Shown here: one piece after another, positions 22,753-42,956 of the stretch
How positions within the stretch are numbered: the stretch's first letter is position 1
Layout: each line of letters begins with the position of its first letter
From: Acidobacteriota bacterium
Lineage (GTDB): Bacteria > Acidobacteriota > Terriglobia > Bryobacterales > Bryobacteraceae
Direction: 5' to 3'
Assembly: GCA_947470805.1 (NCBI GenBank)
Contig: CANIVU010000041.1
Span: 1 to 64,000 of the forward strand
DNA length: 64,000 nucleotides
Position numbers and translations under genes: made by a program
Notes under the pieces: generated by a model
What the model was told of the DNA's origin: nothing
Seen by the model: only the letters and a program-made list of their open reading frames with translations
Database searches by the model: none

Positions 22753-24144
22753 TCAGGCCACTACCGCTTTCACGACCTGACCATGAACGTCGGTGAGGCG
22801 GAAGTCGCGGCCGGCGTAGCGGAAGGTGAACTTTTCGTGTTCGAAGCCGAGGAGGTGGAGGAGCGTGGCGTGGAGGTCGTGGACGTGGACGCGGTCGACT
22901 TCGGAGCGGAAGCCGAATTCGTCCGTTGCGCCGTGGGCCATGCCGCCTTTGGCGCCGCCGCCGGCTAGCCAGACGGAGAAACCATACGAGTTGTGGTCGC
23001 GGCCGGCGGTGCCGGCGTTGGAGCCGAACGCGGGGAGTTCGACGACCGGCGTACGGCCGAATTCCCCGCCCCAGATGATCAGCGTGTCATCCAGCATGCC
23101 GCGTTGTTTCAGGTCCGTCAGCAGGGCGGCGATGGGTTGGTCCGACTCCTGGCCGAGCTGTTTGACGCGCTTGGCTACGTCGTCGTGAGTGTCCCAGGGT
23201 TGCCCCGCGCCGTGCCAGACCTGGACGACGCGGACGCCCTTTTCGAGCAGGCGGCGGGCCATGAGCATCTGGCGGCCGTGGAGCGTGTCGCCGTACATGT
23301 CGCGGATGTGTTGGGGTTCCTTCGAGAGATCGAAGACATCTTCGGCTTCCAGCTGCATGCGAAAGGCGAGTTCAAACGACTGGACGCGGGATTCGAGGGC
23401 TTCGTCTTCGGCGCGGGTCTGTTGATACTCGCGGTTCATGGCGGCGAGGAGGTCGAGTTGTGCCTTCTGCTGGGGACGGGTGGTGAGGCGGTTCTGGACG
23501 TTTTCGACGAGCTTATCGAGATCGGTTTCGCGGGTATCGATGTGGGTGCCCTGGTAGGCTCCTGGAAGGAAGGCCGACTTCCAGTTTTGCGCACCGCGGA
23601 TGGGCAGACCGCCGGGGCAGAGGGAGATGAAGCCAGGGAGGTTTTGGTTCTCCGACCCGAGGCCGTAGACGACCCAGGAGCCAAAGCTGGGACGGCTTTG
23701 TTGCTGCGCGCCGCAGTTCATCATCATGAGCGACGGTTCGTGGTTGGGCACTTCGGTGTGCATGCTGCGGATGACGCAGAGATCATCGGCGTGCTGGGCC
23801 ACTTTGGCGAAGACGTCGCTGATTTCGAGGCCCGATTTACCGTACTTCTTGAAGGCGAACGGGGACGGAAGGGCGGTGCCGGTTTTGCGTTCGGTGCGGA
23901 GGTGGACGGGCAGCGGCTGGCCGGCGTATTTCTGCAGGGCCGGTTTGTAGTCGAACGTGTCCATGTGCGACGGGCCGCCGTTGGCGAAGATGTGGATGAC
24001 GCGTTTGGCTTTGCCGGGGAATTGGGATTTGCGGGGCGCAAGCGGGCCGGCGAGGCCGGCTTGTTCGAAGACGCTCGCCAAGCCGACCAGGCCGAGGCCG
24101 GCGCCTACACGGCGGAAGAGATCGCGACGGTTTACTTGGTGCAT
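22753..24144 (-). CDS. DUF1501 family secreted protein
   Basis: The 463-residue protein begins with a Tat-like signal (NRRDLFRRVGAGLGLVGLAS) and has DUF1501 features: AKRVIHIFANGGPSHMDTFD, LIIWGGEFGRTPVVE, and GRDHNSYGFSVWLAGGG. The fold belongs to the alkaline-phosphatase/sulfatase superfamily, but no substrate is established. DUF1501 genes habitually accompany PSD1 genes in Planctomycetes and Acidobacteria; here the PSD1 stop is 4 nt before this ATG. The preferred start is 24144 because the Tat motif follows at once; 24171 would add nine residues. Confidence 0.9.
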   Translation of the reverse strand: MHQVNRRDLFRRVGAGLGLVGLASVFEQAGLAGPLAPRKSQFPGKAKRVIHIFANGGPSHMDTFDYKPALQKYAGQPLPVHLRTERKTGTALPSPFAFKKYGKSGLEISDVFAKVAQHADDLCVIRSMHTEVPNHEPSLMMMNCGAQQQSRPSFGSWVVYGLGSENQNLPGFISLCPGGLPIRGAQNWKSAFLPGAYQGTHIDTRETDLDKLVENVQNRLTTRPQQKAQLDLLAAMNREYQQTRAEDEALESRVQSFELAFRMQLEAEDVFDLSKEPQHIRDMYGDTLHGRQMLMARRLLEKGVRVVQVWHGAGQPWDTHDDVAKRVKQLGQESDQPIAALLTDLKQRGMLDDTLIIWGGEFGRTPVVELPAFGSNAGTAGRDHNSYGFSVWLAGGGAKGGMAHGATDEFGFRSEVDRVHVHDLHATLLHLLGFEHEKFTFRYAGRDFRLTDVHGQVVKAVVA

Positions 24145-24148
24145 GGGG

Positions 24149-27109
24149 TTAGTCCAGGAACGCGAATTCATTGGTTAAGAGCAGCACTTGCGCGAGTTGT
24201 TCGCGGGGGGTTAATTGACGAATTTGAGGGCCCGCGAATTGGGCGCGGGCGTCCAATTTTTGGTTGCCGATGGTTAGCACCGGGCTCCATTGGAAGTCGT
24301 CGGCTTCGTAGTCGCCGACCGAATCGACGACGAAATCGATGATCTCGCCTTGTTCGACGTCGATGGCCTTTAGATCTGTATCGACGCTGGGGTTGGCTTT
24401 GTAGGAGATGCCGTCGGCGGGGGCGGGTGGCGGGTTGACGCGCCACTTGCCGAGGACGCCTTTTTTGTTCGAAATGGCCCAACCGCGGATGCCGTTGGAG
24501 AAGTGGAAGCGGATGGCGAGGGCGCCGACGTTGAGGACGAGTTTGCCTTCCACGTTGAGTTTGCCGGAGGCGGGGGCGACCCAGCGGCGGACGGCGGCGT
24601 TGGAGAGATCGTCCCCGGGGGCTCCGCCGGCGGCGGTGAGTTTGGCGACGCCGGTTTTGGCGTCGAGGCCGGCGGAGGCGTTCTGCCAGGCGCGGCCGGT
24701 GAAGAAACGGAAGGGGGCGAAGTTGGACGTTGTGCCGGCGTCGGGATCGAGCGTGGCGGTGCCGTATTGCCAGGGGCTCGCCGGCACCGGGGCTGGCGTG
24801 GCAGGGGCGGACCAGAAGGGGGCGGCTTGTTGGCGTTCGGTGGCGGACGGCGGGCGGTGGAGGACTGCCTTGTAGAGACTATCGAGATCGCTCGCGCGGG
24901 CGGCGACGGATTGGGCCATTTCACCGATGAAGGGGCTGTTTAGAAGAAATAATCCTTGTTGGGGGACGGTGGTTTGGTAGCGTTGGGGGGAGTGCTGTTC
25001 GGGGTCGGCGACGTCGAAGGTTTTGAGCAGCGCCAGCGGGCGTTCGCGCTCGATCATGGCGTAAATTGTCCGGCGCGGTTCGGCCGGGGTGGCGACGATG
25101 GAGATGGGCTGGCCGCCCTGGGCGTCATCGAGTTTGCCGGCGGTGGCGAGCATGGCGTCGCGCATGGCCTCGAAGTCCAGACGGCGGCGGGGCATGCGCC
25201 AGAGGAGTTTGTTTTCGGGGTCTTTGGCGCGGGCTTCGGGACGGTCGGCGCTGGATTGGCGGTACGTCTCGGACAGCACGATTTGGCGGATGAGTTGCTT
25301 CATCGACCAGGTTTGGCGAAAGTTAGCGGCGAGGGTATCGAGGAGTTCGGGGTGGGTGGGGAGGTCGCCGCGGAAGCCGAAGTCCGACGGGGTGCGGACG
25401 AGGCCTTCGCCGAAGAGGCGCTGCCAGACGCGGTTGACCATGACACGGGCGGCGACGGGGTTTTGTTCGCTGGTGATGGCGCGGGCGAGTTCGAGGCGGC
25501 CGGAGCCATTGGTGAAGCAGGGTTGGGCTTTGGTGAGGACGGAGGGGAAACAGCGATTGACGGGGTCGCCGAGGTCGTTCTGGTTGCCGCGGGTGAAGAC
25601 GTAGGCGGGCTTGATAACAGGCTTATCGTTGGCGCCGAGGGCGACGGCGGGGGAACCGCGGTAGGCCGCATCGTTGAGCACGGCTTCGTACTGCCACTGG
25701 AGGTCGCGGGTGGTGTTGGCGTCGCCTTCGGTCATGATGTAGGGGAAGTCTTCCACGGGCACGTCGGTAGGGCCGTGGAGGAGGGGCTTGTATTCGGGAG
25801 TTTGGAGGCGGGCGAGGTAGGTGTCGACGGGGCTTTCGGTGGCTTTGCGCCAGTCGGCGAAGAGGGGGTTCGAGTCGACGGCGTCGGCCCAGCGGGCGAG
25901 GACGAGCGAGTTGACGTTCTTTTCGCGGGCGAAGTTATCGAGGCGGGCGCGGGTGACTTTGCGGCCGTCCCAGAGGGCTTGGAGGTAGCGCTGCAGTTCG
26001 GCGGGGGCGCGGAGTTCGGCGCGAAGAACTTCGAGACGTTCGTTGATGAATTCGGCGAGGATGCGTTTGCGGGTGGCGGCGCGCTGTTCATAGAAGGGCG
26101 GGAGTTGGGCGATTTGAACGGGTTCGACGCCGTAGCGGGTGTTGGCGAAGACGCCGTAGAGGCCGTAGTAATCCTTGGTGGGGATGGGGTCGAATTTGTG
26201 GTCGTGGCAGCGGGCGCAGGCGACGGTGAGGCCGAGGAGGCCGCGGGAGACGAGATCAATTTTATCGTCGACGACGTCGGGGAGGTCGACGGCGCGGTTG
26301 GGGTTGAGACCGAGGGAGAGAAAGCCGAGGGCGGCGTGGTCCTTCTTGGGAGTGTTGGGGAGTTGGTCGGCGGCGAGTTGGAGGGCGATGAATTTGTCGT
26401 AGGGGAGGTCTTTGTTGAAAGCGTCGATGAGCCAATCGCGATAGGTGAAAGAGAGGAGGAAGGCGCGGGAGAGGAAGCCGGTATCGGCGTAGCGGGCGAC
26501 GTCCATCCAGTGGCGGGCCCAGCGTTCGCCGAAGCGGGGGGAGGCGAGGAATTTGTCGGCGGCTTGTTCGGGGGTGAGTTGATAGTCCGAGGCGGCGGGA
26601 GGGAGGCCGGTGAGGTCGAAACTGAGCCGGCGGATGAGGGTGCGGTGGTCGGCGGCCGGGGCGGGGGTGAGGCCGTTTTCGGTGAGTTTGGCGCGAATTT
26701 GCTGATCGATGGAACCGGTGGCGGGACGGAGCGGTTGCCAGGCCCAATGGTTGGTATTCTGGGTGGATTTGACGAGGGTGGTGGCGGTGGAGGCGGGGAC
26801 GGGGGCACCCATTTCGGCCCACTTTTCGAGGGTCGCGATTTCGTCCGGTTTGAGTTTGCCGGTGGGGGGCATGCCGACTGATTCGTAGCGAATGGCGGGG
26901 AGGATTCTGGCGGCGGATTTGTGGGCAGTGGCGGGATCGTCAAAACGCAGGCCGGCCATGGGGGCGGCCGATTTGGCGCTGTGGCAGGCGTAGCATTTGG
27001 CGGCCAGCAGGGGGCGGACTTTGGCTTCGAAGAAGTCGGTGCCGGGGTCGGCCGAGGCGGCCAGGGGGAGCAGAAAAGTAACGAGCCAAACTCTCACATT
27101 GGATAGCAT
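24149..27109 (-). CDS. PSD1-type protein: cytochrome c (PSCyt1) + DUF1549 + DUF1553
   Basis: The 986-residue secreted protein has a signal peptide (1-20), a PSCyt1 cytochrome module with CYACH heme site near residue 39, DUF1549 (DQQIRAKLTENGL, then LIRRLSFDLTGLPP) and DUF1553 (LARAITSEQNPVAARVMVNR, then FGEGLVRTPSDFG). Between DUF1553 and its terminal helix (EQLAQVLLLTNEFAFLD) lies an inserted beta-rich stretch (about 770-950, FAPFRFFTGRAWQNASAG onward), perhaps a carbohydrate-binding module. Such proteins are thought to act in polymer or glycan breakdown outside the cell with the paired DUF1501 protein. Confidence 0.92.
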   Translation of the reverse strand: MLSNVRVWLVTFLLPLAASADPGTDFFEAKVRPLLAAKCYACHSAKSAAPMAGLRFDDPATAHKSAARILPAIRYESVGMPPTGKLKPDEIATLEKWAEMGAPVPASTATTLVKSTQNTNHWAWQPLRPATGSIDQQIRAKLTENGLTPAPAADHRTLIRRLSFDLTGLPPAASDYQLTPEQAADKFLASPRFGERWARHWMDVARYADTGFLSRAFLLSFTYRDWLIDAFNKDLPYDKFIALQLAADQLPNTPKKDHAALGFLSLGLNPNRAVDLPDVVDDKIDLVSRGLLGLTVACARCHDHKFDPIPTKDYYGLYGVFANTRYGVEPVQIAQLPPFYEQRAATRKRILAEFINERLEVLRAELRAPAELQRYLQALWDGRKVTRARLDNFAREKNVNSLVLARWADAVDSNPLFADWRKATESPVDTYLARLQTPEYKPLLHGPTDVPVEDFPYIMTEGDANTTRDLQWQYEAVLNDAAYRGSPAVALGANDKPVIKPAYVFTRGNQNDLGDPVNRCFPSVLTKAQPCFTNGSGRLELARAITSEQNPVAARVMVNRVWQRLFGEGLVRTPSDFGFRGDLPTHPELLDTLAANFRQTWSMKQLIRQIVLSETYRQSSADRPEARAKDPENKLLWRMPRRRLDFEAMRDAMLATAGKLDDAQGGQPISIVATPAEPRRTIYAMIERERPLALLKTFDVADPEQHSPQRYQTTVPQQGLFLLNSPFIGEMAQSVAARASDLDSLYKAVLHRPPSATERQQAAPFWSAPATPAPVPASPWQYGTATLDPDAGTTSNFAPFRFFTGRAWQNASAGLDAKTGVAKLTAAGGAPGDDLSNAAVRRWVAPASGKLNVEGKLVLNVGALAIRFHFSNGIRGWAISNKKGVLGKWRVNPPPAPADGISYKANPSVDTDLKAIDVEQGEIIDFVVDSVGDYEADDFQWSPVLTIGNQKLDARAQFAGPQIRQLTPREQLAQVLLLTNEFAFLD

Positions 27110-28864: not shown

Positions 28865-29602
28865 TCAGTACCAGAGCGCGGCACCGACGCCGAAGCCGAG
28901 GGTGAGCAGGAGCGTCTTTTCGTGGTTGGTGGGCGGGTAGCCACGGGCGGTGAGAATGGCGTCGTTGCCGTAGATGACCGGTGCGTCTGCGAAGAGGCCG
29001 GCGAAGATGGATTCGACCGGGCCGTAGAGGCCGGGGTAGGTCGACGATTCAGCGACGCCGGTGGGACTGATGGCGTTGGGAAGGGCGAGGAGGACGCCGT
29101 CGAACTCGGCGGGGAGATGGGAGTGGAGCCATTCGCGAAGGCGGGCGCGGCCCTTGGCTTCGGGCAGGGCCGTACGGCCGAAGGGGAGGTGGGCTTCGTC
29201 GCGTTCAACGGCGCGGTTGGCGTGGGGGGTGAGGATTTTGAGGCGTGTCTGACCGAGGTCGATGGCAATGGGATTCCGCCAGCCTTGCTCATGCCAGATG
29301 GCTTCGGCGCCGGCGCGAAGGGCGAAGGGGCCGGGGGCGGCGAGTTCGTTGGGCCAGCGGAGGGTGGAGGCCGCTTCGGCGGCGTCACCACCAGCGAGGA
29401 GAAGGCGTTCGAAGCCGGCGGCGGGGCCCAGCAGATCGCCCCCCGCCGTGCGGGCGGAGCCGGCGTGGAGTTGGCCCAGGAACTCGTCGAGGCCGGCGAA
29501 GTACGCGGGCTTATCGTGACGAAGTTGATCGAGCGTGGCATGCCGGGCGATGCCCTGCCAGACTTCGAGTCCGTGGAGATGCGGATGGTGGAAGGGGCGC
29601 AC
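28865..29602 (-). CDS. ASKHA-fold sugar-kinase-like protein, short
   Basis: The 245-residue protein begins at a GTG overlapping the GT2 stop by one base (TAGTG), with AAGGAG about 11 nt upstream. ASKHA-type nucleotide-binding segments are visible: a phosphate-1-like AIDLGQTRLKIL near residue 110, VIYGNDAILTARG near 215, and a C-terminal LTLGFGVGAALWY. ROK and other sugar kinases are usually 290-320 residues, so part of the fold is missing or displaced. A divergent sugar kinase or allosteric subunit is possible. A longer upstream frame lies inside the glycosyltransferase gene. Confidence 0.6.
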   Translation of the reverse strand: MRPFHHPHLHGLEVWQGIARHATLDQLRHDKPAYFAGLDEFLGQLHAGSARTAGGDLLGPAAGFERLLLAGGDAAEAASTLRWPNELAAPGPFALRAGAEAIWHEQGWRNPIAIDLGQTRLKILTPHANRAVERDEAHLPFGRTALPEAKGRARLREWLHSHLPAEFDGVLLALPNAISPTGVAESSTYPGLYGPVESIFAGLFADAPVIYGNDAILTARGYPPTNHEKTLLLTLGFGVGAALWY

Positions 29603-30555
29603 TACTCGAGCGGCTCCTTGGTTTCCCGGACGGGGTGCCAGGTGGGGCAGGGTTCGCTCGACAGGTGTGTGTAGTAGACGCGCTGGGCAGAGTAAGCGAT
29701 TTTGCAGAGGACCAACGCGGCCTGGAAGATGCCGTAGTAGAACTGTTCGGAGAGCGGCGCCTGGCGGAGGAGAGAGCGGTCGAGCGCGCGGCGGCCGAGG
29801 CGGGTGTGCGTCTGCCGGGAATCGGGGAAATAGTGGTGCATTCGCTCGATTTCCAGGCACATGCGCTGGTACTTATGGAACATGCCGCGCAGCGTTTCCG
29901 GAGGGCGGTAGCGGACCGCGGCAGGGACGCACTGGAGGGCGGCGGGGCCGTGGGTGCGGAGCACGTCGCGCGAAAGGAAGATATCGTCGGTGCGGATGCC
30001 GGCGGAGAGGTGGAGAAAGTTGTTATCGGCGGTGATGTCCCATTGGAGTTCATCGACGGTGGGGATATTCCAATGGCGAATGGCGAAGCACTGGCCGTTG
30101 CAGTAGTTACGGGAGGTTTGATAGCCCTCGTTCAGGTTGTAAAGATACAAGGCGCGAGCGAGGGGTGTGCGGCGTTTGGGCGGGACGGGGACCTTGGCGG
30201 CGTAGGCGATTTGGAGCGCGGAATTGGACTGAAGCGCGGCGGTGAGTTGGGTGATGGTATCGGCGTGGAGGAGAATATCGGCGTCGGTAAAGATGACGAA
30301 GGGCACGCCGGGGGAGGCGGCGACCAAGGCGCGCTGCGCTTCGACGAGGCCGCCGTGGGTTTCCCAGAGAAAGAGATCCGGTTGGGCTTCGAGCAGGACC
30401 GGGGTATTGTCTTCGTTGTCGTTCAGCAGGACGTGGATTTCGTATTCGACACCGAGCGCCGCGGTGGCCCGGGCGATGGAGACGCGCAGGGAGGCGAGCA
30501 GGCCGAGGATGGTGGCGGCTTCGTTGCGGGCGGTGATGCCGATGGGGATCTTCAT
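29602..30555 (-). CDS. family 2 glycosyltransferase (GT-A fold)
   Basis: The 317-residue protein begins MKIPIGITARNEAATILGLL, the usual GT2 opening, and has the nucleotide-sugar/metal motif FTDADILL (about 91) and a downstream TDDIFLSRDVL segment. No clear membrane anchor is present. Its ATG overlaps the GT1 stop by 4 nt and its TAG overlaps the next GTG by 1 nt, so it is embedded in the seven-gene coupled set. Donor and acceptor are unknown. Confidence 0.85.
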   Translation of the reverse strand: MKIPIGITARNEAATILGLLASLRVSIARATAALGVEYEIHVLLNDNEDNTPVLLEAQPDLFLWETHGGLVEAQRALVAASPGVPFVIFTDADILLHADTITQLTAALQSNSALQIAYAAKVPVPPKRRTPLARALYLYNLNEGYQTSRNYCNGQCFAIRHWNIPTVDELQWDITADNNFLHLSAGIRTDDIFLSRDVLRTHGPAALQCVPAAVRYRPPETLRGMFHKYQRMCLEIERMHHYFPDSRQTHTRLGRRALDRSLLRQAPLSEQFYYGIFQAALVLCKIAYSAQRVYYTHLSSEPCPTWHPVRETKEPLE

Positions 30556-31706
30556 ACGCGCAGTTGCTCGATCAACTGGGCGGCGCGAAGAGCGCCGTTG
30601 GCTTGATAGGTGCGAGACAACGCAGCCAGGTTACGGCGAATGGGGCCATCGGCGAGCAGAGTGTCGATGGCGGCGGTGACCTCCAACTGCGGCATGGTGC
30701 GGAGGTCGGCGGCGATGCCGATTCCGGCTTGCGTGAGGAAGTGCGCCTGGTGGAACTGGTCGTTGCACATGGGCGACAGGAGCATGGGAACGTTGGCGGC
30801 GATAGCCTCCATGAAGCTGTTGGCGCCGCCGTGGGTAAGGAAAGCGTGGGCCCGTTGGAGAAGTGCCTGTTGCGGGGCGTAGCGATAGAGCTGGCAGTTT
30901 GGCGTGGGCTGGATTTGGTCCACCAGATCGCCGACGGAGAGGACCAGATGGACACGGCTGGCGGCGGTTTGGAGCTTGGTGAACAGTTCGGGCCAGTGGT
31001 AGATCTGGCTGCCGAAAGAGGCGTAGACGATGGGTTTGTTGTCCGGGAGGGGTTGGAGCGGCACTTCATCGCCGCGCTCGAGGAGCGGGAAGGACGGGCC
31101 GACCAATTCCACGCCGGGGACGGGGCCGCAGAGCGCTTCGGTGGTGAAGGCGATGGTGAGAAAGGGCGAGAGTACGTCGGCACTGCGGAAGGCGGCTTGG
31201 AGGCCGTATTGGGCGAAGATCTCATCGCGACGCGGGGCGAGCGCGCGGCAGGTTGCAAGGAGTGCGCTCGAGAGAGTGGGCGGGAGGACGGGGTTGAGCG
31301 AATTGGAGACGCTGGCCCAGGGGCGGCCTTCGGCGTGGGCGGCAAGGGCGGCGGCGTAGTAGAGAGGATCGATGACGACGATGTCGGCTCGCAGACGGCG
31401 GATGGCGAGACGGAGTTGCGCGACCTGCGGCGGGATATCGGTGAGCAGGAGTTGCGCGATCCATTCGGCGAGGCGCGGGGCGTCCTGGATGAGCGATACC
31501 AGTTCGGCGCCGTGGGTGGGGCGGGGGCCTTGGGTTGCCGGGATCAGGTCAGTCGCAAAGGAAAGCCCGGCGGCGGCACACTGCGAGGAGATATCGCCAG
31601 GAGCGACGACGGTTACTTGATGGCCGCGCGCGGCGAGCGCCTGAGCGGGGCCGATGTACGGATTGACGTGGCCTTTTTCCGGGATGACGGCAAAGAGGAT
31701 ATTCAT
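30552..31706 (-). CDS. UDP-glycosyltransferase, GT1 (macrolide-type)
   Basis: The 384-residue GT-B enzyme starts MNILFAVIPEKGHVNPYIGP, the GT1 N-terminal motif, with C-terminal donor-site features YASFGSQIYHWPEL, RYAPQQALLQRAHAFLTHGG and ANSFMEAIAANVPMLLSPM. Such enzymes glycosylate small hydrophobic acceptors (polyketides, terpenoids, lipids). ATG 31706 overlaps the asparagine-synthetase TGA (ATGA). A longer frame from 31727 is not needed. It suggests a small-molecule product for the cluster. Confidence 0.88.
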   Translation of the reverse strand: MNILFAVIPEKGHVNPYIGPAQALAARGHQVTVVAPGDISSQCAAAGLSFATDLIPATQGPRPTHGAELVSLIQDAPRLAEWIAQLLLTDIPPQVAQLRLAIRRLRADIVVIDPLYYAAALAAHAEGRPWASVSNSLNPVLPPTLSSALLATCRALAPRRDEIFAQYGLQAAFRSADVLSPFLTIAFTTEALCGPVPGVELVGPSFPLLERGDEVPLQPLPDNKPIVYASFGSQIYHWPELFTKLQTAASRVHLVLSVGDLVDQIQPTPNCQLYRYAPQQALLQRAHAFLTHGGANSFMEAIAANVPMLLSPMCNDQFHQAHFLTQAGIGIAADLRTMPQLEVTAAIDTLLADGPIRRNLAALSRTYQANGALRAAQLIEQLRV

Positions 31707-33397
31707 TGGGCAAAGCGGGAGAACCACATGAGCAGAGCGGCGGCGCGGAAACAGAGGCCGGTTTCGCGATCGGTGGCCGGCAGGGGGAGTTTCGCCAGGC
31801 TATCGGCAGGGAGGTAGGGACCGAGGCATTCGCCATGGCGTTTCCAGAGTTTCTGGAAGAGGCGATAGATGGCACGGCGGGCATTGAGATTTTTGGTGAG
31901 CGCGGACTTGGGACGCCAGGCGATTTCCGGCGGCAGTACTTCGGCGGCGGCGAGACGGAGGTGATGTTTTTCGATGCCGTTTTCGAGACCCGCGGCGAGG
32001 GAGACCTGGGCCGCGTAAGCCAGGACGGCGGGGTCGGAAAACGGGACGCGGCCTTCGACCGAATGGGCCATCAGTTGGATGTCTCCATTGTGCAGCAGGC
32101 GGGTGAGCCAGAAGTGGCGGATGAGGCTGGAAATGGCCAGGCGTTGATCGTCGGGCGTTCGCCAACTGTGGCCTTCCGATTCGGCGAAGGAGCGGTATTT
32201 GTCCACGAAATGAGCGGCGCCGATGCGGGCGGGCAGGCAGCCGAAGTAGTCCAGCAGCGGCGCGGGGGAGGCAAGGCGTTCCGGGTGCAGCAGGAAGGAG
32301 TAGCCGAAGTGAGTTTCATCGGCGGCATCGCCCACCAGAACGGCTTTGACGTGAGGCGCGGCGGCGGCGGCGAGGAGGTTTTGGGAAACTTCCTGCTCCC
32401 AGGCGGCGATGAGATCGTTGGTACGGAGTGTGCGTTCAAGAGCCGCGTCGAAGTCAGGCACTTTGACGGCGTTGTGGGGATGGTGGTGCCGGGCGGCAAC
32501 CTGACGGGCGAAGGGGAGATCGTCGCTGCGGACGATGAGTGAGTTCTCAAAGTGTTCCGGGTGGAGATCGTAATCGATGGTGAAGGCGGGCATCGGCGCC
32601 GGGGCGAGGGCGGCGATGAGGCTGGAATCGACGCCACCGGAAAGGAACAGGCCGACGGGAGCATCGGCCGTGGATTGGGCTATCACCGCGTGGCGGAGGG
32701 CGGGCAGGAAGGCGGGTGGCGGGGCGGCGGCGGAGCGGTATGTGCCGAGGAAGACCGAGTTGCCGGAAAGCTCCAGATAGTGGCCGGGGAGGAGGCGTTG
32801 CAGGTTGGCGAAGGGGAGTTGGTGGGAGCTGCTGAAATAGGGCGCAACGAGATATTCGGCGATGGCTTCTTCCCGCGGACGGAAGGGGAGAAGGCCGGAT
32901 TCCAGCAGCGGGCCGGCTTCGGAACAGTAGACGAACTGGCTTTCGGAGGCGTGATAGATCAGGGGCTTTACCGAGAGCGGGTCGACGGCGGCGAGAGCGT
33001 GTTGTTCCTGCGCATCCCAAAGAAACAGGGCGAACATCCCTTCGAAGCGAGAGAGAGCGTCCGGGCCCCAGTGGATGAGCGCGGCGAGGACGACTTCGGT
33101 ATCGGTGGCGGTTTGGAACTCGTAGTGAGGCCGCAGTTGACGGCGAAGCGCGGCGTGGTTGTAGACTTCGCCGTTGTAGGTGAGCGTATAGCGGCCGTCG
33201 GGGGATTGCAGGGGAAGCGGGTGCGGATCGGGATGGACGAGGGCCAGGCGAGTCTGGACAAACGCGGCATTGGGGAGAGCGACGAGACCTTCCCCATCGG
33301 GACCGCGATGGCGAAGCAGCCACTGGAGGCGGGAGGCGCGGGAACGGTCCGCGGCGGTGAGGCCGTGATAGCGAATCAGCCCGGCGATGCCACACAT
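31703..33397 (-). CDS. asparagine synthetase (glutamine-hydrolysing) family protein
   Basis: The 564-residue protein has an N-terminal glutaminase domain (MCGIAGLI with Cys2 nucleophile, RHRGPDGEG, TYNGEVYNH) and a PP-loop synthetase domain (FLSGGVDSS about 252-260, VLVGDAADETHFGY about 350, HSVEGRVPFSD). It transfers amide nitrogen to an adenylated acid. GGAGG precedes the ATG well. It overlaps the upstream 218-residue PP-loop gene by 22 bp, and its TGA overlaps the GT1 ATG. In a cluster with glycosyltransferases it may amidate a pathway intermediate rather than aspartate (inference). Confidence 0.9.
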   Translation of the reverse strand: MCGIAGLIRYHGLTAADRSRASRLQWLLRHRGPDGEGLVALPNAAFVQTRLALVHPDPHPLPLQSPDGRYTLTYNGEVYNHAALRRQLRPHYEFQTATDTEVVLAALIHWGPDALSRFEGMFALFLWDAQEQHALAAVDPLSVKPLIYHASESQFVYCSEAGPLLESGLLPFRPREEAIAEYLVAPYFSSSHQLPFANLQRLLPGHYLELSGNSVFLGTYRSAAAPPPAFLPALRHAVIAQSTADAPVGLFLSGGVDSSLIAALAPAPMPAFTIDYDLHPEHFENSLIVRSDDLPFARQVAARHHHPHNAVKVPDFDAALERTLRTNDLIAAWEQEVSQNLLAAAAAPHVKAVLVGDAADETHFGYSFLLHPERLASPAPLLDYFGCLPARIGAAHFVDKYRSFAESEGHSWRTPDDQRLAISSLIRHFWLTRLLHNGDIQLMAHSVEGRVPFSDPAVLAYAAQVSLAAGLENGIEKHHLRLAAAEVLPPEIAWRPKSALTKNLNARRAIYRLFQKLWKRHGECLGPYLPADSLAKLPLPATDRETGLCFRAAALLMWFSRFAQ

Positions 33398-34032
33398 TGC
33401 AGGGCCTCCAACATCTGTTTGGTGTAAGTGAGGATGTTACTGCCGGGATAGTAAGTTGGGCGCTTGGGAATGGGCGGGATGCCGAGGGAGGCGGCGAGCT
33501 GGCGGAGGGGGAGTTTATCGGGGTCCGGCACCGTGCACAAGGCACGGACCTCGGGCTCCAGGAAAGGCGTAATCAATCCGACGTTACAGTGGCGAAAGCA
33601 GGCCTGCGTGAGGGGCAGAAGGTCGCACTCCGCTTCGCAGCGGAAGACCTGATCGGCCGCGTCGCCTGTGACGATGTAGTCGATGCCACGTGCGGCGAGG
33701 CCTTCGGCGAGGAGGAGTTTCGAGACCGGATGGAGGTTATAGATTGGGGTCCTGGTAACGTTTAGAAAACGTGGCAGGGCCTCCTCAAAACCGGAGACTT
33801 CGATGGGGTAAACAGGGATATCGAAGTTATCAGCAATGGCCACGGTTTGTTCCCATTCGCAGTAGCCTTCGACCCGGGAGACAAGCGTGTAACCGGCAAC
33901 GTCGCGACCCAGTTGGCGAAGTAAGAGGGCGAGCACCCACGAGTCCAATCCGCCGCTGACAGCCACCGCGACGAGCGCACCGGCATGGAGGCGGGAGAGA
34001 GCGGACAGGAGTGCTTCGCCGAGAGGGCTCAT
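33376..34032 (-). CDS. stand-alone PP-loop (asparagine synthetase C-domain-like) protein
   Basis: The 218-residue protein lacks the glutaminase domain but keeps a PP-loop: AVSGGLDSWVLALLLRQLG (SGGLDS about 24-29) and YIVTGDAADQVF later on, both typical of the asparagine synthetase family. Cysteines (CEAECDLL, ACFRHC) lie near the active-site side. It may use a carried or free ammonia donor, or act as a subunit with the full synthetase encoded next. Start 34032 overlaps the radical SAM stop (ATGA). Confidence 0.8.
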   Translation of the reverse strand: MSPLGEALLSALSRLHAGALVAVAVSGGLDSWVLALLLRQLGRDVAGYTLVSRVEGYCEWEQTVAIADNFDIPVYPIEVSGFEEALPRFLNVTRTPIYNLHPVSKLLLAEGLAARGIDYIVTGDAADQVFRCEAECDLLPLTQACFRHCNVGLITPFLEPEVRALCTVPDPDKLPLRQLAASLGIPPIPKRPTYYPGSNILTYTKQMLEALQCVASPG

Positions 34033-34856
34033 GGCGTGATCTGGGTGGTGAGGGTGACGAGTTGATCGCGCTTGGCGCGGATGGCCTGCGGATTGAGTTG
34101 GCGATGCGTGTCGAGCGGCGCCTGGCCACCGTTGCATAGGAAGCAGGAGTGGAGCGGCTCGGTTTGCGTGAGATGTTCCCGAATGGTGGCGGCGAGGACG
34201 GCGGCGTCTTCGACATGCACGGGGATGCCGTCCTCGGCGAAGAGGGGACCATCGGCGGCGAACTTCTGGATGTACTGCGGACGGGTGCAGGAGTAAAACC
34301 GGCCGTTCTTGATGGAGTTACAACGGTGGCGGATCCAGCAATCGGCGAAGGTGTCGCGAGCCTCATCGCGGGTGGCGAGGACGGTCCGGTCCAAACACGT
34401 GAACTTATCCTGCATCTTCCAACTGACTTCGATGTTCCGCCGGGCGGCTTCCCGGGCAACGTAGCGGATCAGATCCTTCGGCAACGCAGGCTCCGGGTAG
34501 AGAGAAACCGAAAGCATCTGAATGCAATCCCAGGAACGCGGCGTGAGTTGCCGCAGAAGAATGCCGTTGGTGGTGAGTTGGATGCGCGCGCCGACCTGCA
34601 GTTCGTGGGCGGTGACGAGAAGCTCTTCCAGCGCCGGATGGAGCAGCGGTTCGCCGCCGACAATCTTCAGAAACTCCGGCCGGACGACGCGGCGAACGGC
34701 GATGAGATCCTCGCGGAATGCCACCGGATCGGCAAGCCATTTTTTGAGAATGGGCGAGAAGGAGCAGCAGTGATCACAGCGTAGATTGCAGTGATCAGTA
34801 ATGTGATACTCGAGCGCCCGAGTTTGTACCCGGCCGTCTACGATCGGATAGTTCAC
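34029..34856 (-). CDS. radical SAM protein with C-terminal auxiliary-cluster cysteines
   Basis: The 275-residue enzyme has the radical SAM motif CxxxCxxC as CNLRCDHC (Cys23, 27, 30), VGGEPLLHP as the GGE motif, and LTTNGILL. Later cysteines (CWIRHRC, SCTRP and CFLC near 240) suggest a SPASM-like auxiliary Fe-S cluster. GTG 34856 has AAGGG just upstream and overlaps the aldolase TAG by one base; the longer frame from 35120 lies inside the aldolase gene. The reaction is unknown. Confidence 0.85.
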   Translation of the reverse strand: MNYPIVDGRVQTRALEYHITDHCNLRCDHCCSFSPILKKWLADPVAFREDLIAVRRVVRPEFLKIVGGEPLLHPALEELLVTAHELQVGARIQLTTNGILLRQLTPRSWDCIQMLSVSLYPEPALPKDLIRYVAREAARRNIEVSWKMQDKFTCLDRTVLATRDEARDTFADCWIRHRCNSIKNGRFYSCTRPQYIQKFAADGPLFAEDGIPVHVEDAAVLAATIREHLTQTEPLHSCFLCNGGQAPLDTHRQLNPQAIRAKRDQLVTLTTQITP

Positions 34857-35635
34857 TATCCCTTCAGTATATGGCGAACGGCGTCGATCCCGCTTGTCAG
34901 TGCCGCGCGATAGACAGCGTAATCGATGCCCCAACTGATGACATTGAAGCCGATATCGCGCCACTGCTGAGCGTCTTCCACGCGCCCGGGCTGGATGCCC
35001 GCCTGCTTGCCGTGCCGGCGGGCGGCGGCGGTGACGGCATGAAGAGCACCAATAAAATCGGGGTGTTGAAACTGCGCGGGGATGCCCATGGCCTGCGTCA
35101 GATCGTAGTGGCCGACCCATAGGACATCAATTCCAGGCGTGGCGGCAATGGCGTCGATGTTGCTGACGCCTAGCGGCGACTCGATCATGGCGATGACGGT
35201 CGTGTTCTGGTTGGCGTAGCGGAAATACTCCACCGGGTCGGGCATAACGAAATCGTTGTGCGCGCCGCCGAGCGCCACGCCACGGCGGCCGAGCGGGGCG
35301 TATTTGCAGGCGTCGACGATCTCCCGGGCCCGCTGGGGGGTTTCGACGTTGGCGACCATTATGCCCAGCGCGCCGGCATCGAGCGTGCGAGCGCAGAAGT
35401 GATAAAGGCCCTGCGGAATGCGGACAAACGGGGCGATATCGGTGGCGCGGAACCAGGCGCAGAGATCGGCGATGCGTTCCGTATCGTAGCCGGTGTGTTC
35501 CATATCGATCATGACGAAATCTGGATTGGCGCCAGCGACGATGCGGGCGATGTTGCGCGTGCCGAAATCGCTGATCATATGGCCGGCGGCGGTGCCGGTG
35601 GCGGCGATGGACTGTTGGAATTTGTTCGGTTTCAT
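34856..35635 (-). CDS. HpcH/HpaI-type class II aldolase
   Basis: The 259-residue TIM-barrel protein has HpcH/HpaI features: PDFVMIDMEHTGYD, PFVRIPQG, LDAGALGIMVANVETP, MIESPLGVSNIDAIAATPG and DVLWVGHYDLTQAMG. Family members make or cleave a C-C bond next to a pyruvate-like keto acid using a divalent metal. The start at 35635 has GGAG about 11 nt upstream. It is the first gene of the seven-gene minus-strand set and is divergent from the DUF6282 gene (82-bp gap). Confidence 0.88.
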   Translation of the reverse strand: MKPNKFQQSIAATGTAAGHMISDFGTRNIARIVAGANPDFVMIDMEHTGYDTERIADLCAWFRATDIAPFVRIPQGLYHFCARTLDAGALGIMVANVETPQRAREIVDACKYAPLGRRGVALGGAHNDFVMPDPVEYFRYANQNTTVIAMIESPLGVSNIDAIAATPGIDVLWVGHYDLTQAMGIPAQFQHPDFIGALHAVTAAARRHGKQAGIQPGRVEDAQQWRDIGFNVISWGIDYAVYRAALTSGIDAVRHILKG

Positions 35636-35717
35636 ACGCGTGGAACTCCGTTTCGGCTTCGCCGCGTAGTCTATCACGGGGCTTCATCTCGTCTTCCGAT
35701 TGGGATATCTTGTCGGC

Positions 35718-36548
35718 ATGAGCGGACTCCCGGAGTACCTTCGCGGCGCGGCGGACCTGCACGTTCACAGCTCCCCGGATCGCGTCCCGCGGCGGCTTGA
35801 CGACATCGACCTGGCGCGGGAGGCAGCGCGTACCGGCTTCGGCGCGCTACTGCTGAAGAACGACATGGTGCCGACCATGGACCGCGCCTATCTGGTGAAC
35901 CGCATGGTACCGGACATCGTCATTTATGGCGGGATTGTACTGAATGACAGTGTGGGTGGGTTCAACACGGCAGCCGTACGGGTGGCCTTGGAACTCGGCG
36001 CGAGGGTAGTCGAAATGCCGACCACTTCCGCGCATAATCACAAATTGACGGAGCACGGCCACGGCGGGTTATCGGTCTTCGACGCGCATGGCGAGTTGCG
36101 CCACGATGTGAAGGATATCTGCATTCTGATCGGGCATTCCAGGGCCATTTTGGCGACCGGCCACTTGAGCCCGGAAGAGGGCTCGGCGTTGATTCGCTAC
36201 GCCTATACGCAGGGGATCCGGCGGATGATTGTGTCTCACCCGGAGTGGGGACCAACGGCTTATCCGATCGCGCTGCAGCATGACCTGGCGCGCTACAGCG
36301 TGATGTTCGAGCGGCAATTTCTTTCGACTACGGCGCAGGGTGGCGGGGTGTCCCTGGAGACGATCGCGAACGCAATTGCCGATGTGGGCGTGGAGTCAAC
36401 GATTCTTGCGAGCGGCTTGGGCCAACTGGAGAATCCGCCGCCGGCGGAAGGCATGGCGATTTATGCCGAGCGGATGCAGGCAGCCGGATTCACGCCCGAA
36501 ACTTTGCGCGCGATGATGGTGACCAACCCAAACGTTTTGTTAGAGTAG
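35718..36548 (+). CDS. DUF6282 family metal-dependent hydrolase-like protein
   Basis: The 276-residue protein starts near AADLHVHSSPDRVPRRLD, an amidohydrolase-type HxH metal motif. Further candidates are HNHKLTEHGHGG, IGHSRAI, ATGHLSPEEG and IVSHPEWGP. The layout fits DUF6282, whose reaction is not established. It begins a plus-strand run with the DUF3500 (5-bp gap) and sulfatase genes. Start 35718 is chosen over TTG 35700. Confidence 0.8.
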   Translation: MSGLPEYLRGAADLHVHSSPDRVPRRLDDIDLAREAARTGFGALLLKNDMVPTMDRAYLVNRMVPDIVIYGGIVLNDSVGGFNTAAVRVALELGARVVEMPTTSAHNHKLTEHGHGGLSVFDAHGELRHDVKDICILIGHSRAILATGHLSPEEGSALIRYAYTQGIRRMIVSHPEWGPTAYPIALQHDLARYSVMFERQFLSTTAQGGGVSLETIANAIADVGVESTILASGLGQLENPPPAEGMAIYAERMQAAGFTPETLRAMMVTNPNVLLE

Positions 36549-36553
36549 GGGCC

Positions 36554-37723
36554 ATGAAACGGCTCATCGTTTGGATTGGCGTAGTGATGGCAGTGGCCTT
36601 CTCCGAGGACCTGCAGGAAGCGTTCAAGAAGCGCAGCCTGGCGGCGGAAGAGGCGGGGTTGAAAGAACCGTTCCGCGGCGTTACGGCGAATGGAACCGTG
36701 GAGCCGGGCCTGTTCCCGGTGAAATCCACGGGCGTTACTACGGAACCTGTCCGGAAGGCGGCGGTAGCATTTCTGGCCGGACTGACCGACGCGCAACGCG
36801 CCAAGACCAAGTTCCCGATCGATGACAGCGAGTGGCGCAAGTGGATGAACCAGCATTTTTACGTCCGGCAGGGCGTGAGCTTTCTGGAGATGAACGACAA
36901 GCAGAGGGAACTCGGGTTCGCGCTGCTGCGTGCATCGCTGAGCGCCAACGGCCTCAAGCTATCGCGCGACATTATGAAGCTGAACGAGACGCTGGGCGAG
37001 TTGAACAACAACGATTTCGCCCAGTACGGCGAGTGGCGGTATCACATCACCGTGATGGGCGAGCCGTCAAAGGACAAACCGTGGGGATGGCAGATTGACG
37101 GCCATCACCTGATCATCAATTACTTCGTTCTGGGCGACCAGGTGGTGATGACGCCGACCTTCGTAGGGTCCGAGCCGGTGATTGCGACGTCCGGAAAATA
37201 CAAGGGAACATCGATCCTCCAGGAAGAGCCGAAGCTGGGTCTGGCGCTGATCCGCTCGTTTGACGCCGCGCTGAAGAAGAAGGCGATTCTCGAGACAGCC
37301 AAACCTGCGAACAACAATGTGGGAGAGGCGTTCAAGGACAATGTGGTGTTGGATTACGCCGGCGTTCGGGGTTCGGAAATGACCGCCGCACAGAAGAAAG
37401 CGATGCTCGGAGTAGTAGCTAAGTACTTGAGTAACATGGACGACGGCCACGCCAAGGTGAAAATGACCGAAGTGGAGAAGCACTTAGACAAGACCTACTT
37501 CGCCTGGATCGGCGGCACGGAGGACGCAAGCGTGTTCTACTACCGCATCCACAGCCCGGTGATTCTGATTGAGTTCGACCACCAGCGTCCGGCCGGCCTG
37601 CGCAATATGATGAAGGACCAATCGCCGAACAAGGAGCACGTCCACGTTGTGATCCGCACCCCGAACGGCAACGATTACGGCAAGGACCTGCTGCGCCAGC
37701 ATTACGCCATGCACAAGCACTAG
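36554..37723 (+). CDS. DUF3500 family secreted protein
   Basis: The 389-residue protein has a signal-like N-terminus (LIVWIGVVMAVAFS) and DUF3500 features: MNQHFYVRQGVSFLEMND, QYGEWRYHITVMGEP, WGWQIDGHHLIINYFV and HSPVILIEFDHQ. The biochemical role is unknown. It sits 5 bp from the neighbours on both sides in a DUF6282-DUF3500-sulfatase run. Confidence 0.82.
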   Translation: MKRLIVWIGVVMAVAFSEDLQEAFKKRSLAAEEAGLKEPFRGVTANGTVEPGLFPVKSTGVTTEPVRKAAVAFLAGLTDAQRAKTKFPIDDSEWRKWMNQHFYVRQGVSFLEMNDKQRELGFALLRASLSANGLKLSRDIMKLNETLGELNNNDFAQYGEWRYHITVMGEPSKDKPWGWQIDGHHLIINYFVLGDQVVMTPTFVGSEPVIATSGKYKGTSILQEEPKLGLALIRSFDAALKKKAILETAKPANNNVGEAFKDNVVLDYAGVRGSEMTAAQKKAMLGVVAKYLSNMDDGHAKVKMTEVEKHLDKTYFAWIGGTEDASVFYYRIHSPVILIEFDHQRPAGLRNMMKDQSPNKEHVHVVIRTPNGNDYGKDLLRQHYAMHKH

Positions 37724-37728
37724 CCACC

Positions 37729-39156
37729 ATGAGCCACACACTTTCCCGCCGCGCCTTTCTGGCGCTGGGCGGGGGCCTGTTCGCGCAGACCCCGCAAAAG
37801 CCCAATATTCTGCTGATTCTCTGCGACGACCTCGGCTATGGGGACGTGCAAGCCTACTTCCCCGATTCCAAAATTCCGACGCCGCACATGGACAAACTGG
37901 CGAGCGAAGGCATGCGTTTCACCGACGCCCATTCGCCCTCCTCCGTCTGCACGCCGACGCGCTACGGCCTGCTCACCGGCCGCTACTGCTGGCGCACGCG
38001 CATGAAGAGCGGCGTTGGCAACGGCTACTCACCGGCGTTAATTGAACCCGGCCGCGCCACAATCGCCTCGCTCCTCAAGACTCAACGTAACTACCGCACG
38101 GGCGGTTTCGGCAAGTGGCACTTAGGCCTCGGCAACGACGAGAAAGTGGATTACGCAAAGTCATTTACACCCTCGCCCAATGACTTTGGCTTCGACGAAT
38201 TCTTTGGCATTCCGGCGTCGCTCGACATGCCGCCGTATGTCTTTATAGATAACCATCGCGCCGTCGAGCCACCGACATCGACCATCGCCGACAACGGCGA
38301 AATCAAGCGCGGCCCCTACTGGCGCGGCGGCCCGCGGGCGCCCTCGTTCCAGATGGAGGAGGTAGTCCCGGCGATCGTCAAGCGCGCCTGCGAGTTCGTG
38401 GAAAAGGACAAAGGCCCCTTCTTCGCCTACGTCCCTCTGCCCGCGCCGCACACGCCATGGGTGCCATCGAAGCCCTTCAAAAACAGGTCAAAGGCCGGCC
38501 TTTACGGGGACTTCGTCGAAGAGACCGATGCCTCGATCGGCCGCATTCTGGAAAGCCTGGAACGCACCGGACAGGCAAAGAACACGCTGGTCATCGTCAC
38601 CTCCGACAACGGTGCTCCGTGGGAGGAACGCGATTCCCGCGAAGCCATCGGCCACTGGGCCAACGCCAACTGGCGCGGCCAGAAAGCCGACATTCAGGAG
38701 GCCGGCCATCGTATTCCGTTCATCGTCCGCTGGCCCGGCATGGTGAAGCCGGGCACCACGTCCAGCCAGACCATCTGCCTGACCGATATCTTCGCCACCA
38801 TCGCCCAGATCCAGGGCATTCCGTTAACTGACATGATGGGTGAAGACAGCGTCAGCCTGCTCAACATCCTTACCGGCAAGCAACGCGGCGCCGTGCGCGA
38901 GGCCGTCGTCCATCACTCCTCCACCGGCGTCTTCGCCATCCGCCAGGGCGATTGGAAACTGGTGTTCGGCCGCGGTTCCGGCGGCTTCACCGAACCGGCG
39001 AAGATTGTCCCCAAACCGGGCGAGCCCACCGTCGAACTCTACAATCTCCTCAACGACCCGCACGAGGACCACAACGTCTACGACTCGAACCCAAAAATCG
39101 TGGCGCGCCTCACGTCGTTGTTACAACGCTACAAGGACGCCGGCCACAGCCGCTAA
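37729..39156 (+). CDS. secreted arylsulfatase-type sulfatase
   Basis: The 475-residue protein has a Tat-like signal (SRRAFLALGGGLF), the metal-binding start PNILLILCDDLGYGD, and the formylglycine motif in SSVCTPTRYGLLTGRY (Cys about 83; C-x-P-x-R). GGFGKWHLG and the VIVTSDNGAPW segment complete the active site. It needs a formylglycine-generating enzyme, not visible here. Likely substrate is a sulfated glycan (inference). It ends convergently, overlapping the GNAT gene by 4 bp. Confidence 0.93.
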   Translation: MSHTLSRRAFLALGGGLFAQTPQKPNILLILCDDLGYGDVQAYFPDSKIPTPHMDKLASEGMRFTDAHSPSSVCTPTRYGLLTGRYCWRTRMKSGVGNGYSPALIEPGRATIASLLKTQRNYRTGGFGKWHLGLGNDEKVDYAKSFTPSPNDFGFDEFFGIPASLDMPPYVFIDNHRAVEPPTSTIADNGEIKRGPYWRGGPRAPSFQMEEVVPAIVKRACEFVEKDKGPFFAYVPLPAPHTPWVPSKPFKNRSKAGLYGDFVEETDASIGRILESLERTGQAKNTLVIVTSDNGAPWEERDSREAIGHWANANWRGQKADIQEAGHRIPFIVRWPGMVKPGTTSSQTICLTDIFATIAQIQGIPLTDMMGEDSVSLLNILTGKQRGAVREAVVHHSSTGVFAIRQGDWKLVFGRGSGGFTEPAKIVPKPGEPTVELYNLLNDPHEDHNVYDSNPKIVARLTSLLQRYKDAGHSR

Positions 39157-41561: not shown

Positions 41562-41672
41562 CGTCTAATCCCTTCACTTCTTTAACGCGTCAAACAGGAA
41601 AATAGATGCGCAAAGATTTGTGAATAAATTTGGAGAAGCGTTTCATGGCGGAAACATGATACGTTGCAAAAG

Positions 41673-42956
41673 ATGCGTATTGAACTGGCGTTTGGAAAGA
41701 CAGGGCTTGCCGCGGAGCTGCCCGACACATTGCGGTATCAGTTTTTGGAGGCCCGATCGGCGGTGGCGCTCGCCGACGGCGCAGCCGCACTCGAAGCGGC
41801 GATGGATGCCCCGATCGGCACCGCCCCCCTCGTCGAACTGGCGCGCGGCAAGAAGACCGCCGCGATTTCCGTCTGTGACATTACCCGCCCGGCGCCGAAC
41901 CGCCTGGTCCTGCCGCCGCTGTTGGCGCGTCTGGAACAGGGCGGCATTACCCGCGAGAATACGACCGTGCTGATCGCCACCGGTCTCCACCGCCCGGCGA
42001 CGGAAGAGGAAATCCGCGAGATCATCGGGCCGGATCTCTACGGGAAAATCCGCGTTGTGAACCACCATGCCAAGGTGCTCTCCGAACACACATATCTGGG
42101 CGACACGACGACCGGCACCCCCGTCCACATCGATTCGCGCTTCATCGCGGCCGACCTCCACATCACCCTCGGCTTCATCGAGCCGCACTTGATGCTCGGC
42201 TTCTCCGGCGGCCGCAAGCTGATCGCCCCCGGCCTCGCCGCCCAGGAAACGATCAAGGTGCTCCACAGCCCCAAGTTCATGCGCGACAAACGCGCCGTGG
42301 AAGGTTCGGTTGAGGACAATCCGCTCCACCGCGAGTTGATTGAAATCTCCCGCATCGCCCGGCACGATTTTCTGGTCGACGTCTCCCTCACGCGCGACCG
42401 CAAAATTGCCCAGGTCTTCGCCGGCCACCCAGAGCAGGCCCACCGCCGCGGCATGGAGTTCGTCGGCAAAGTCATGCTGGAGCGCATCGAGGAGCCCGTC
42501 GACGCCGTCATCACCACCTCCGCCGGCTACCCGTTGGATCTCACGTTCTACCAGACTGTGAAAGGGATCACCGCCGCCAGCCACATCGTGAAACCGGGCG
42601 GCCGGATTCTGGTTGTCTCCGCCTGCACCGAAGGCGCCGGCGCACCGGAGTTCTGCGAGATGCTGGAGCGCTTCCCTACCCCGCAGGCCTTCCTGGACCA
42701 CGTTGCGGAAAATCCCGTCGTCGTCGACCAGTGGCAGTTGGAGAAACTGGCGCTCGTCTGCCGCGACAAGGAGCTGCTGTTCCACGTGCCCGGGCTGGAG
42801 GCGCACTATCAGGACAAGCTGTGGGGGCGCACGTTTGCCGATGTGAACGAAGCCATCGCGGCCGCGCTCGATGGCCTGCCGGCCGGCGCCCGCATTGCCG
42901 TAATCCCCGAAGGCCCCTATGTACTGGCCAGAGTGGAGGAAGGCGTGTTGGCCTGA
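41673..42956 (+). CDS. LarA-family (nickel-pincer lactate racemase-like) protein
   Basis: The 427-residue protein fits the LarA family, which racemises lactate or other 2-hydroxyacids with a nickel pincer nucleotide bound to a lysine. Visible: SVCDITRPAPN, IATGLHRPATEEE (candidate catalytic His), IEPHLMLGFSGGRKLIAPG (second His and the cofactor Lys), and PLDLTFYQTVKGI. The larB/C/E maturation genes are not seen in the window. Start 41673 is used; a TTG at 41664 is possible. Its 3' end overlaps the convergent sensor gene by 40 bp. Confidence 0.87.
   Translation: MRIELAFGKTGLAAELPDTLRYQFLEARSAVALADGAAALEAAMDAPIGTAPLVELARGKKTAAISVCDITRPAPNRLVLPPLLARLEQGGITRENTTVLIATGLHRPATEEEIREIIGPDLYGKIRVVNHHAKVLSEHTYLGDTTTGTPVHIDSRFIAADLHITLGFIEPHLMLGFSGGRKLIAPGLAAQETIKVLHSPKFMRDKRAVEGSVEDNPLHRELIEISRIARHDFLVDVSLTRDRKIAQVFAGHPEQAHRRGMEFVGKVMLERIEEPVDAVITTSAGYPLDLTFYQTVKGITAASHIVKPGGRILVVSACTEGAGAPEFCEMLERFPTPQAFLDHVAENPVVVDQWQLEKLALVCRDKELLFHVPGLEAHYQDKLWGRTFADVNEAIAAALDGLPAGARIAVIPEGPYVLARVEEGVLA

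Follow-up and report, generated by a model that had tools for sequence, protein, structure and literature searches.

What is made by a run of seven genes whose reading frames overlap at every junction, and do all seven contribute to the product? Such a run of minus-strand genes, A–G, lies at positions 28865-35635 of a 64,000-nucleotide stretch of DNA (hereafter the window), which is part of contig C41 in the 8.7 Mb genome of a soil acidobacterium. From its 5′ end it encodes an aldolase (A), a radical S-adenosylmethionine (SAM) protein (B), an asparagine-synthetase-like ATPase (C), an AsnB-type protein (D), glycosyltransferases of the GT1 (E) and GT2 (F) types and a kinase-like protein (G). By gene B, the closest named relatives are metagenome-assembled genomes labelled Acidobacteria, Candidatus Sulfopaludibacter and Bryobacterales. 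We judge aldolase A to be an adjacent gene outside the pathway and, with slightly better than even confidence, read B–G as a translationally coupled biosynthetic operon, most likely for a small glycoside that would be oxidised, amidated and phosphorylated.

Conservation of the B–G cassette

All seven open reading frames (ORFs) and their six overlaps of 1, 4, 22, 4, 4 and 1 bp, as described in the initial annotation, were confirmed (Table 1). Its domain labels were borne out by Pfam for A–F; G of the window has no Pfam match. All seven genes are under purifying selection, with ratios of non-synonymous to synonymous substitution rates (dN/dS) of 0.014-0.290 between the window and loci L052 and L044. 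The 4 bp overlap of B and C and the 22 bp overlap of C and D are identical in five of six loci measured (L039, L040, L044, L048 and L052), the exception being L054, where C and D lie 1 bp apart. The junction overlaps are maintained by evolution.

A radical SAM alignment search of genome contigs yielded 13 loci. Eleven of them are labelled Acidobacteria, and one each Bdellovibrionales and Proteobacteria. Ten carry B–G in the same order: nine of the 11 labelled Acidobacteria and the Bdellovibrionales locus, L054. Two of the ten are damaged: L050 (=L041), where codon 93 of B is an in-frame stop, and L051 (=L042), where D has a frame change; each may be real decay or an assembly error. The contig of L043 is 4.3 kb long and stops within E, and L053 holds remnants of B, G and H only, H being the gene described below. 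For the residue counts given in the following sections, alignments A1, A2 and A3 hold four of the five family clusters each, owing to the B stop of L041, the undetermined bases in C of L042 and the frame change in D of L042, respectively; alignment A11 omits L050 and L053, with their broken copies of B, from the 13 loci.

Among 150 genomes of the family, G finds matches in nine (five strong, E 1.5e-31 or better, and four weak and partial) and C in 26 (five strong, E 5.6e-49 or better, and 21 weak, E 1.8e-6 or worse), and the strong matches of both fall in the same five genomes. The window's four relatives among these five show an identical B–G order and represent three genera of one family. 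The conserved order that had been proposed as a check in related genomes is therefore present in these three genera and in a Bdellovibrionales genome. At E 1e-20, the B profile matches 2 of 240 genomes in the phylum of L054, 2 of 321 in the class of L055 and 4 of 347 in the phylum to which the window belongs, counts that include the starting genome and are lower bounds, only the best candidates per genome having been scored. Of the five further matches of this profile, four (L065, L067, L068 and L069) are radical SAM relatives accompanied by none of the genes C–H at E 1e-4, and the fifth is L066, a rearranged set described below.

A seventh gene, H, follows G in seven of the ten ordered loci (L045, L046, L047, L048, L050, L051 and L054). 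It encodes a PIG-L deacetylase (PF02585, in the two loci tested, L040 and L042) and overlaps G by 13 bp in L039, L040 and L048 and by 25 bp in L054. H was not seen after G in the ordered loci L044, L049 and L052. Searched with the H profile, the window's own genome and those of L044 and L055 gave no match, and that of L049 gave one weak match (E 2.6e-6). The conserved cassette is thus one of seven genes, B–H, and the window's lineage is without H. The earlier view of A–G as a single seven-gene unit stands for the kept order of B–G, not for the aldolase, which is only a neighbour; most relatives instead carry the PIG-L gene at the other end.

Table 1 Genes of the overlapping run in the window
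Gene	Product	Position	Strand	Support
A	HpcH/HpaI aldolase; judged neighbour, outside pathway	34856-35635	-	PF03328
B	Radical SAM protein, twitch-type C-terminus, SpeY-like, 275 amino acids (aa), GTG start	34029-34856	-	PF04055 E 3.7e-10; PDB profile match 7wzv
C	Asparagine-synthetase-type PP-loop ATPase without glutaminase domain, 218 aa	33376-34032	-	PF00733 E 2.2e-11
D	Full-length AsnB-type amidotransferase, 564 aa	31703-33397	-	TIGR01536 above cut-off
E	GT1/UGT-type glycosyltransferase, 384 aa	30552-31706	-	PF00201
F	GT2-type glycosyltransferase, 317 aa	29602-30555	-	PF00535 E 4.5e-6
G	ASKHA/ROK-like kinase domain, predicted circularly permuted, 245 aa, GTG start at 29602	28865-29602	-	AlphaFold2 model, Foldseek

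Predicted chemistry and competing readings

By its sequence, B is related over its full length to SpeY, the twitch radical SAM dehydrogenase of spectinomycin biosynthesis. The B profile matches SpeY structure 7wzv over 257 positions (E 5.8e-42), with MoaA as the next solved structure (E 1.6e-9); in the Foldseek listing, 7wzv is titled Twitch Radical SAM Dehydrogenase SpeY and BtrN (4m7t) stands at rank 30. Three radical SAM and four auxiliary cysteines of SpeY (7wzv, 7wzx and 7x0b) align with cysteines of B, which is 23-25% identical to SpeY. In B, the CxxxCxxC cysteines of the SAM cluster (Cys 23, 27 and 30) are invariant in 12 of 12 sequences (alignment A11), as are Cys 173, 190, 238 and 241, the putative ligands of an auxiliary cluster. 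B differs from SpeY in an additional invariant cysteine, Cys 179 (12 of 12), at a position occupied by Ser in SpeY. PMC9012708 describes an auxiliary cluster on four cysteines and a two-electron oxidation for BtrN, and three cysteines and no net oxidation for MoaA. Since the four-cysteine cluster of BtrN accompanies a two-electron oxidation, we count the four auxiliary cysteines of B in favour of an oxidation. With SAM and two Fe–S clusters, B would turn a ring hydroxyl into a ketone, the oxidation that BtrN performs and that the name of SpeY denotes. The labels SynChlorMet and viperin, considered for B on matches below cut-off, were given up once the SpeY match emerged.

D combines an N-terminal glutaminase domain carrying Cys2 with a full synthetase domain and scores 292.7 bits on the AsnB model TIGR01536 (cut-off 267.1). 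Its glutaminase-type residues C2, R50, N75 and D99 are conserved in four of four sequences and E77 in three of four (alignment A3), each presumably with a role in the glutaminase. The closest solved structures are the hydroxyamidotransferase 7ylz (E 4.2e-53), which we infer to be TsnB9, and E. coli AsnB (E 3.1e-46). TsnB9 and SaHAT are hydroxyamidotransferases, and SaHAT uses ATP to activate the free carboxylate of benzoic acid, according to PMC13418202. D thus has a hydroxyamidotransferase as its nearest solved relative, though it also passes the AsnB model, and, unlike in hydroxyamidotransferase systems, no amidooxygenase-like neighbour was recognised among the window genes scanned with Pfam. 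D, perhaps together with C, may activate a carboxylate with ATP and convert it to an amide with nitrogen from glutamine or another amine.

E is, as judged from sequence, a glycosyltransferase of the natural-product GT1 type: it matches the MGT subfamily TIGR01426 at E 1.6e-37, under the cut-off, and its closest solved relatives are YjiC, Kcn28 and oleandomycin glycosyltransferase. F retains 59-65% identity in four relatives, and its profile found no match in the PDB up to E 1. The H profile is closest to Dbv21 and teicoplanin pseudoaglycone deacetylases. On the observed gene content, order, selection and homologies of the cassette, together with its conserved cysteine and glutaminase-type residues, we build a pathway of which every reaction, the reaction order, the acceptor and the product are read from homology. 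In addition to the steps proposed for B and D, E and F would transfer one or two sugars onto a small acceptor, H, in relatives, would free the amine of an N-acetyl amino sugar, and G would phosphorylate the sugar moiety to activate or protect it.

We count for this glycoside pathway the kept order of B–G, the strong matches of G and C in the same five family genomes, the likeness of B to SpeY, that of H and E to antibiotic-tailoring enzymes, the AsnB assignment of D and the purifying selection. In its favour, too, the pairwise distances of all six genes B–G go together across 11 loci (r 0.941-0.986, Mantel p 0.001 in 15 of 15 comparisons). BtrN, the teicoplanin and Dbv21 deacetylases and OleD-type GT1 enzymes are of the same types as B, H (in relatives) and E. 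Unlike aminoglycoside and glycopeptide clusters, the operon contains no recognised cyclitol-forming or peptide-scaffold gene and has two proteins of the asparagine-synthetase type in addition. The glycosylated, amidated product suggested in the initial annotation remains plausible from the gene set. At L055, the neighbours of the cluster genes are two APH-type kinases, CmcI-type and FkbM-type methyltransferases and a polysaccharide deacetylase, which is compatible with glycoside tailoring. At L054:1892-2650, the Bdellovibrionales locus, an FkbO/Hyg5-type chorismatase gene overlaps the start of B, a hint that the acceptor in L054 may be an aromatic or cyclohexene acid. As a general precursor enzyme, the chorismatase was rejected: the FkbO/Hyg5 model has no match in the window's genome and matches one of seven further cluster genomes, that of L054 itself.

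Several points weigh against the glycoside operon. The scan profiles were derived from this cluster itself, and distant variants may escape them. The congruence of the pairwise distances may come in part from shared vertical descent. L055 has B–E only. In another acidobacterial family, a related locus (L066:4798-10650) is rearranged, its radical SAM gene running divergently from AsnB-like, GT1 and PIG-L genes; the AsnB-like protein has no recognised glutaminase domain, and an aminotransferase class III gene lies farther out. The window's genome is without H, and deacetylation therefore cannot be universal. Pfam recognises no acceptor-making or transport gene inside the operon, nor was a cyclitol-forming or sugar-nucleotide gene found in B–G or the Pfam-scanned window neighbours, the rest of the genome not having been searched. 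The predicted model of B is of moderate confidence, with a predicted local distance difference test score (pLDDT) of 69.7.

The main rival is a decoration of the cell surface, in which the same genes would modify a lipopolysaccharide or exopolysaccharide. The pair of glycosyltransferases, the PIG-L-type deacetylase and the relationship of D to AsnB would suit such a set, and D also matches the XrtA exopolysaccharide amidotransferase model, below its cut-off. We nevertheless regard this reading as doubtful: neither the operon nor the Pfam-scanned window genes nor the five neighbours scanned at L055 include a recognised flippase, polymerase, polyprenyl transferase or sugar-nucleotide gene, and E is of the natural-product GT1 type.

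C bears on a second alternative, that it is a sulfur-transfer enzyme of the LarE/TtuA kind and that the product contains sulfur instead of a second amide. Over residues 5-83, the C profile scores slightly better in the PDB on TtuA (E 1.3e-5) and LarE (E 3.1e-5) than on GMP synthase (E 9.2e-5), C weakly matches the LarE and MnmA models, and it narrowly exceeds the cut-off of Pfam tRNA_Me_trans (21.2 versus 20.6 bits). Its best Pfam match is, however, Asn_synthase, at 44.4 bits against a cut-off of 21, and the open frame that contains C in L055 matches the same family at E 5.2e-29, which makes the sulfur product unlikely. The PP-loop motif SGGxD of C is present in four of four aligned sequences. 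Elsewhere in the window, positions 41664-42956 encode a homologue of LarA-type lactate racemase.

Still less probable is a pathway for a ribosomally synthesized and post-translationally modified peptide (RiPP), in which the radical SAM and AsnB-like proteins would modify a ribosomal peptide that is then glycosylated; the initial annotation had named RiPP-like pathways as one setting typical of such enzymes. A lasso cyclase model does match D and a radical SAM peptide-maturase model B, both below cut-off, yet the best full-length solved relative of B is SpeY, no peptide maturase, and the overlap of genes throughout the operon leaves no space for a precursor gene inside it, more distant parts of the genome lying outside the search. 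The short precursor peptide gene that the initial annotation had proposed to look for nearby was likewise absent from the edges at L045 and L046, where a large upstream ORF stops 6 bp before B and a convergent downstream ORF overlaps the end of H.

The kinase-like protein G

G is probably a circularly permuted kinase of the ASKHA/ROK type, as judged from its predicted structure. The AlphaFold2 model was computed from eleven sequences and reached a pLDDT of 88.4 (61 for the first ten residues) and a predicted template modelling score of 0.85; in the alignments and the model, G is a 246-residue version, one residue longer than the 245 aa that follow from the GTG start. In the model, residues 10-107 comprise two short strands followed by three helices that alternate with two strands, beginning and ending with a helix; residues 112-220 comprise three strands followed by the same alternation, and residues 231-245 two strands. 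The RNase H-like core, as given in PMC1079889, consists of three strands followed by helix, strand, helix, strand, helix. By this order, residues 112-220 would form one complete core, and residues 231-245 together with 10-107 a second one if the chain is read circularly. The predicted order of strands and helices in G is hence permuted with respect to the ROK order, in which the N-domain precedes the C-domain.

Six residues of G (D116, G118, N214, D215, G237 and G241) are invariant in all eleven sequences and include residues of the ATP-phosphate motifs and the acid of the ND motif, for which we assume the role that it has in ROK kinases. The motifs GG at 72-73, DLGQ at 116, ND at 214 and GFGVG at 237 are, in our reading, candidates for the motifs of ASKHA proteins (names as in PMC1079889), with GG at the site expected for the adenosine motif.

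A Foldseek search with the G model returned ROK-type kinases and repressors in its first nine rows, over 114-155 columns, at template modelling scores of 0.31-0.40 and a best E of 1.1e-5; such scores over a partial length are expected if only one half matches in order. Among the lower rows, type II pantothenate kinases align over some 230 columns with a root-mean-square deviation near 8. In ROK sugar kinases (3lm2, ManNAc kinases), it is the N-terminal half that aligns with the C-terminal half of G. Unlike these kinases, G has its predicted C-domain elements at the N-terminus, and the Cys-rich zinc motif, which we take to be a feature of ROK proteins, was not found in any of the eleven G sequences.

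Comparisons of rotated and native sequences gave mixed scores. In native order, none of the 11 G sequences has a Pfam ROK match over the cut-off; among seven rotated sequences there is one match, at E 0.14. Against two ROK proteins in global mode, rotated G scored 25.6 and native G 12.5; against three ROK proteins, native G (29.8) and its best rotation (29.9) were level, and once these proteins had been cut down to the domain, native G came out ahead (41.9 versus 27.8-31.6 for cuts at residues 100-112). The N-terminal half of G alone did not surpass shuffled columns, with 12.9 compared with 11.4 +/- 2.0 (maximum 15.9, n=60). In the PDB, the rotated profile (seven of 11 sequences) found weak matches to 1woq (E 0.31), 3lm2 (E 0.42) and 3r8e (E 0.99), two of which span the joined ends, and the native profile (five sequences) matched 3lm2 at a weak E of 0.57. 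The claim of a permutation therefore rests on the predicted structure.

Taken in its widest form, the proposal is that Acidobacteria and Bdellovibrionales use the cassette to produce glycoside natural products of an undescribed class and that G is a permuted ROK-type sugar kinase, in which helices and strands of the C-domain come first, the whole N-domain follows and the phosphate-2 hairpin comes last; we consider the chances of this combined claim to be evenly balanced. The new elements are the gene combination and the order of the halves of G, the individual parts being from known families. Literature searches, whose coverage excluded most subscription journals, returned no description of this gene set or of a permuted ROK/ASKHA order. 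To our knowledge, few natural-product pathways of Acidobacteria are known, and the cassette offers a compact, conserved and testable pathway from an under-sampled phylum, with B directly assayable on glycosides. If true, the permutation of G would be a new domain order for the ASKHA kinase superfamily; it would mean that the ASKHA fold tolerates a cut behind the ATP-binding hairpin and would provide a natural model of domain rearrangement.

The aldolase and other neighbouring genes

Orthologues of A (at least 66% identity) occur in 17 of 19 genomes of the genus, the other two having only paralogues of 42% and 35% identity. In four of these 17 loci an intact B comes after A and in two a degraded one; the remaining 11 show no B within 1.5 kb. 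Genes for DUF6282 or a sulfatase are seen close to A at 12 of the 17, the flank on the other side of A being shorter in L079 and L087. In two genomes, cluster and aldolase are found on different contigs (C24 and C17 in G078, C2 and C1 in G004). This spread through the genus, the other neighbours and the separate contigs place A outside the pathway. From the few loci with B behind A it follows that the cluster reached this position in one subclade, where A would be a neighbour coupled to the operon, and is decaying there in two genomes: radical SAM fragments lie directly behind the aldolase at L076:2280-2539 (several frames) and L077:1392-1481, and the cluster appears to have been lost from both.

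The claim that the aldolase acts as a pathway enzyme, so that all seven genes A–G form one pathway in which A makes a C–C bond, is not supported by this comparison and is the least probable of the readings considered, notwithstanding the 1 bp overlap of A with B in the window, L052 and L044, the adjacency of the two genes in L043, the strong purifying selection on A (dN/dS 0.025 and 0.106) and the presence in L054 of another precursor-type gene, the chorismatase, in the position of A.

Beside A, the window contains divergent DUF6282, DUF3500 and sulfatase genes at 35700-39156. At L047:6182-10810, a large upstream ORF, DnaE-like by eye, forms a single open frame with the radical SAM gene B, through either fusion of the genes or faulty assembly; the two are kept apart in L045 and L046 by a stop and the 6 bp. 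No tRNA was found in the window, nor any Rfam family at its gathering score. Positions 22753-27109 hold a pair of DUF1501 and PSCyt2/PSD1 (DUF1549/DUF1553) proteins, of a kind common in Planctomycetes, and at 49149-52759 a gene for the anhydro-N-acetylmuramic acid kinase AnmK overlaps a MutS gene.

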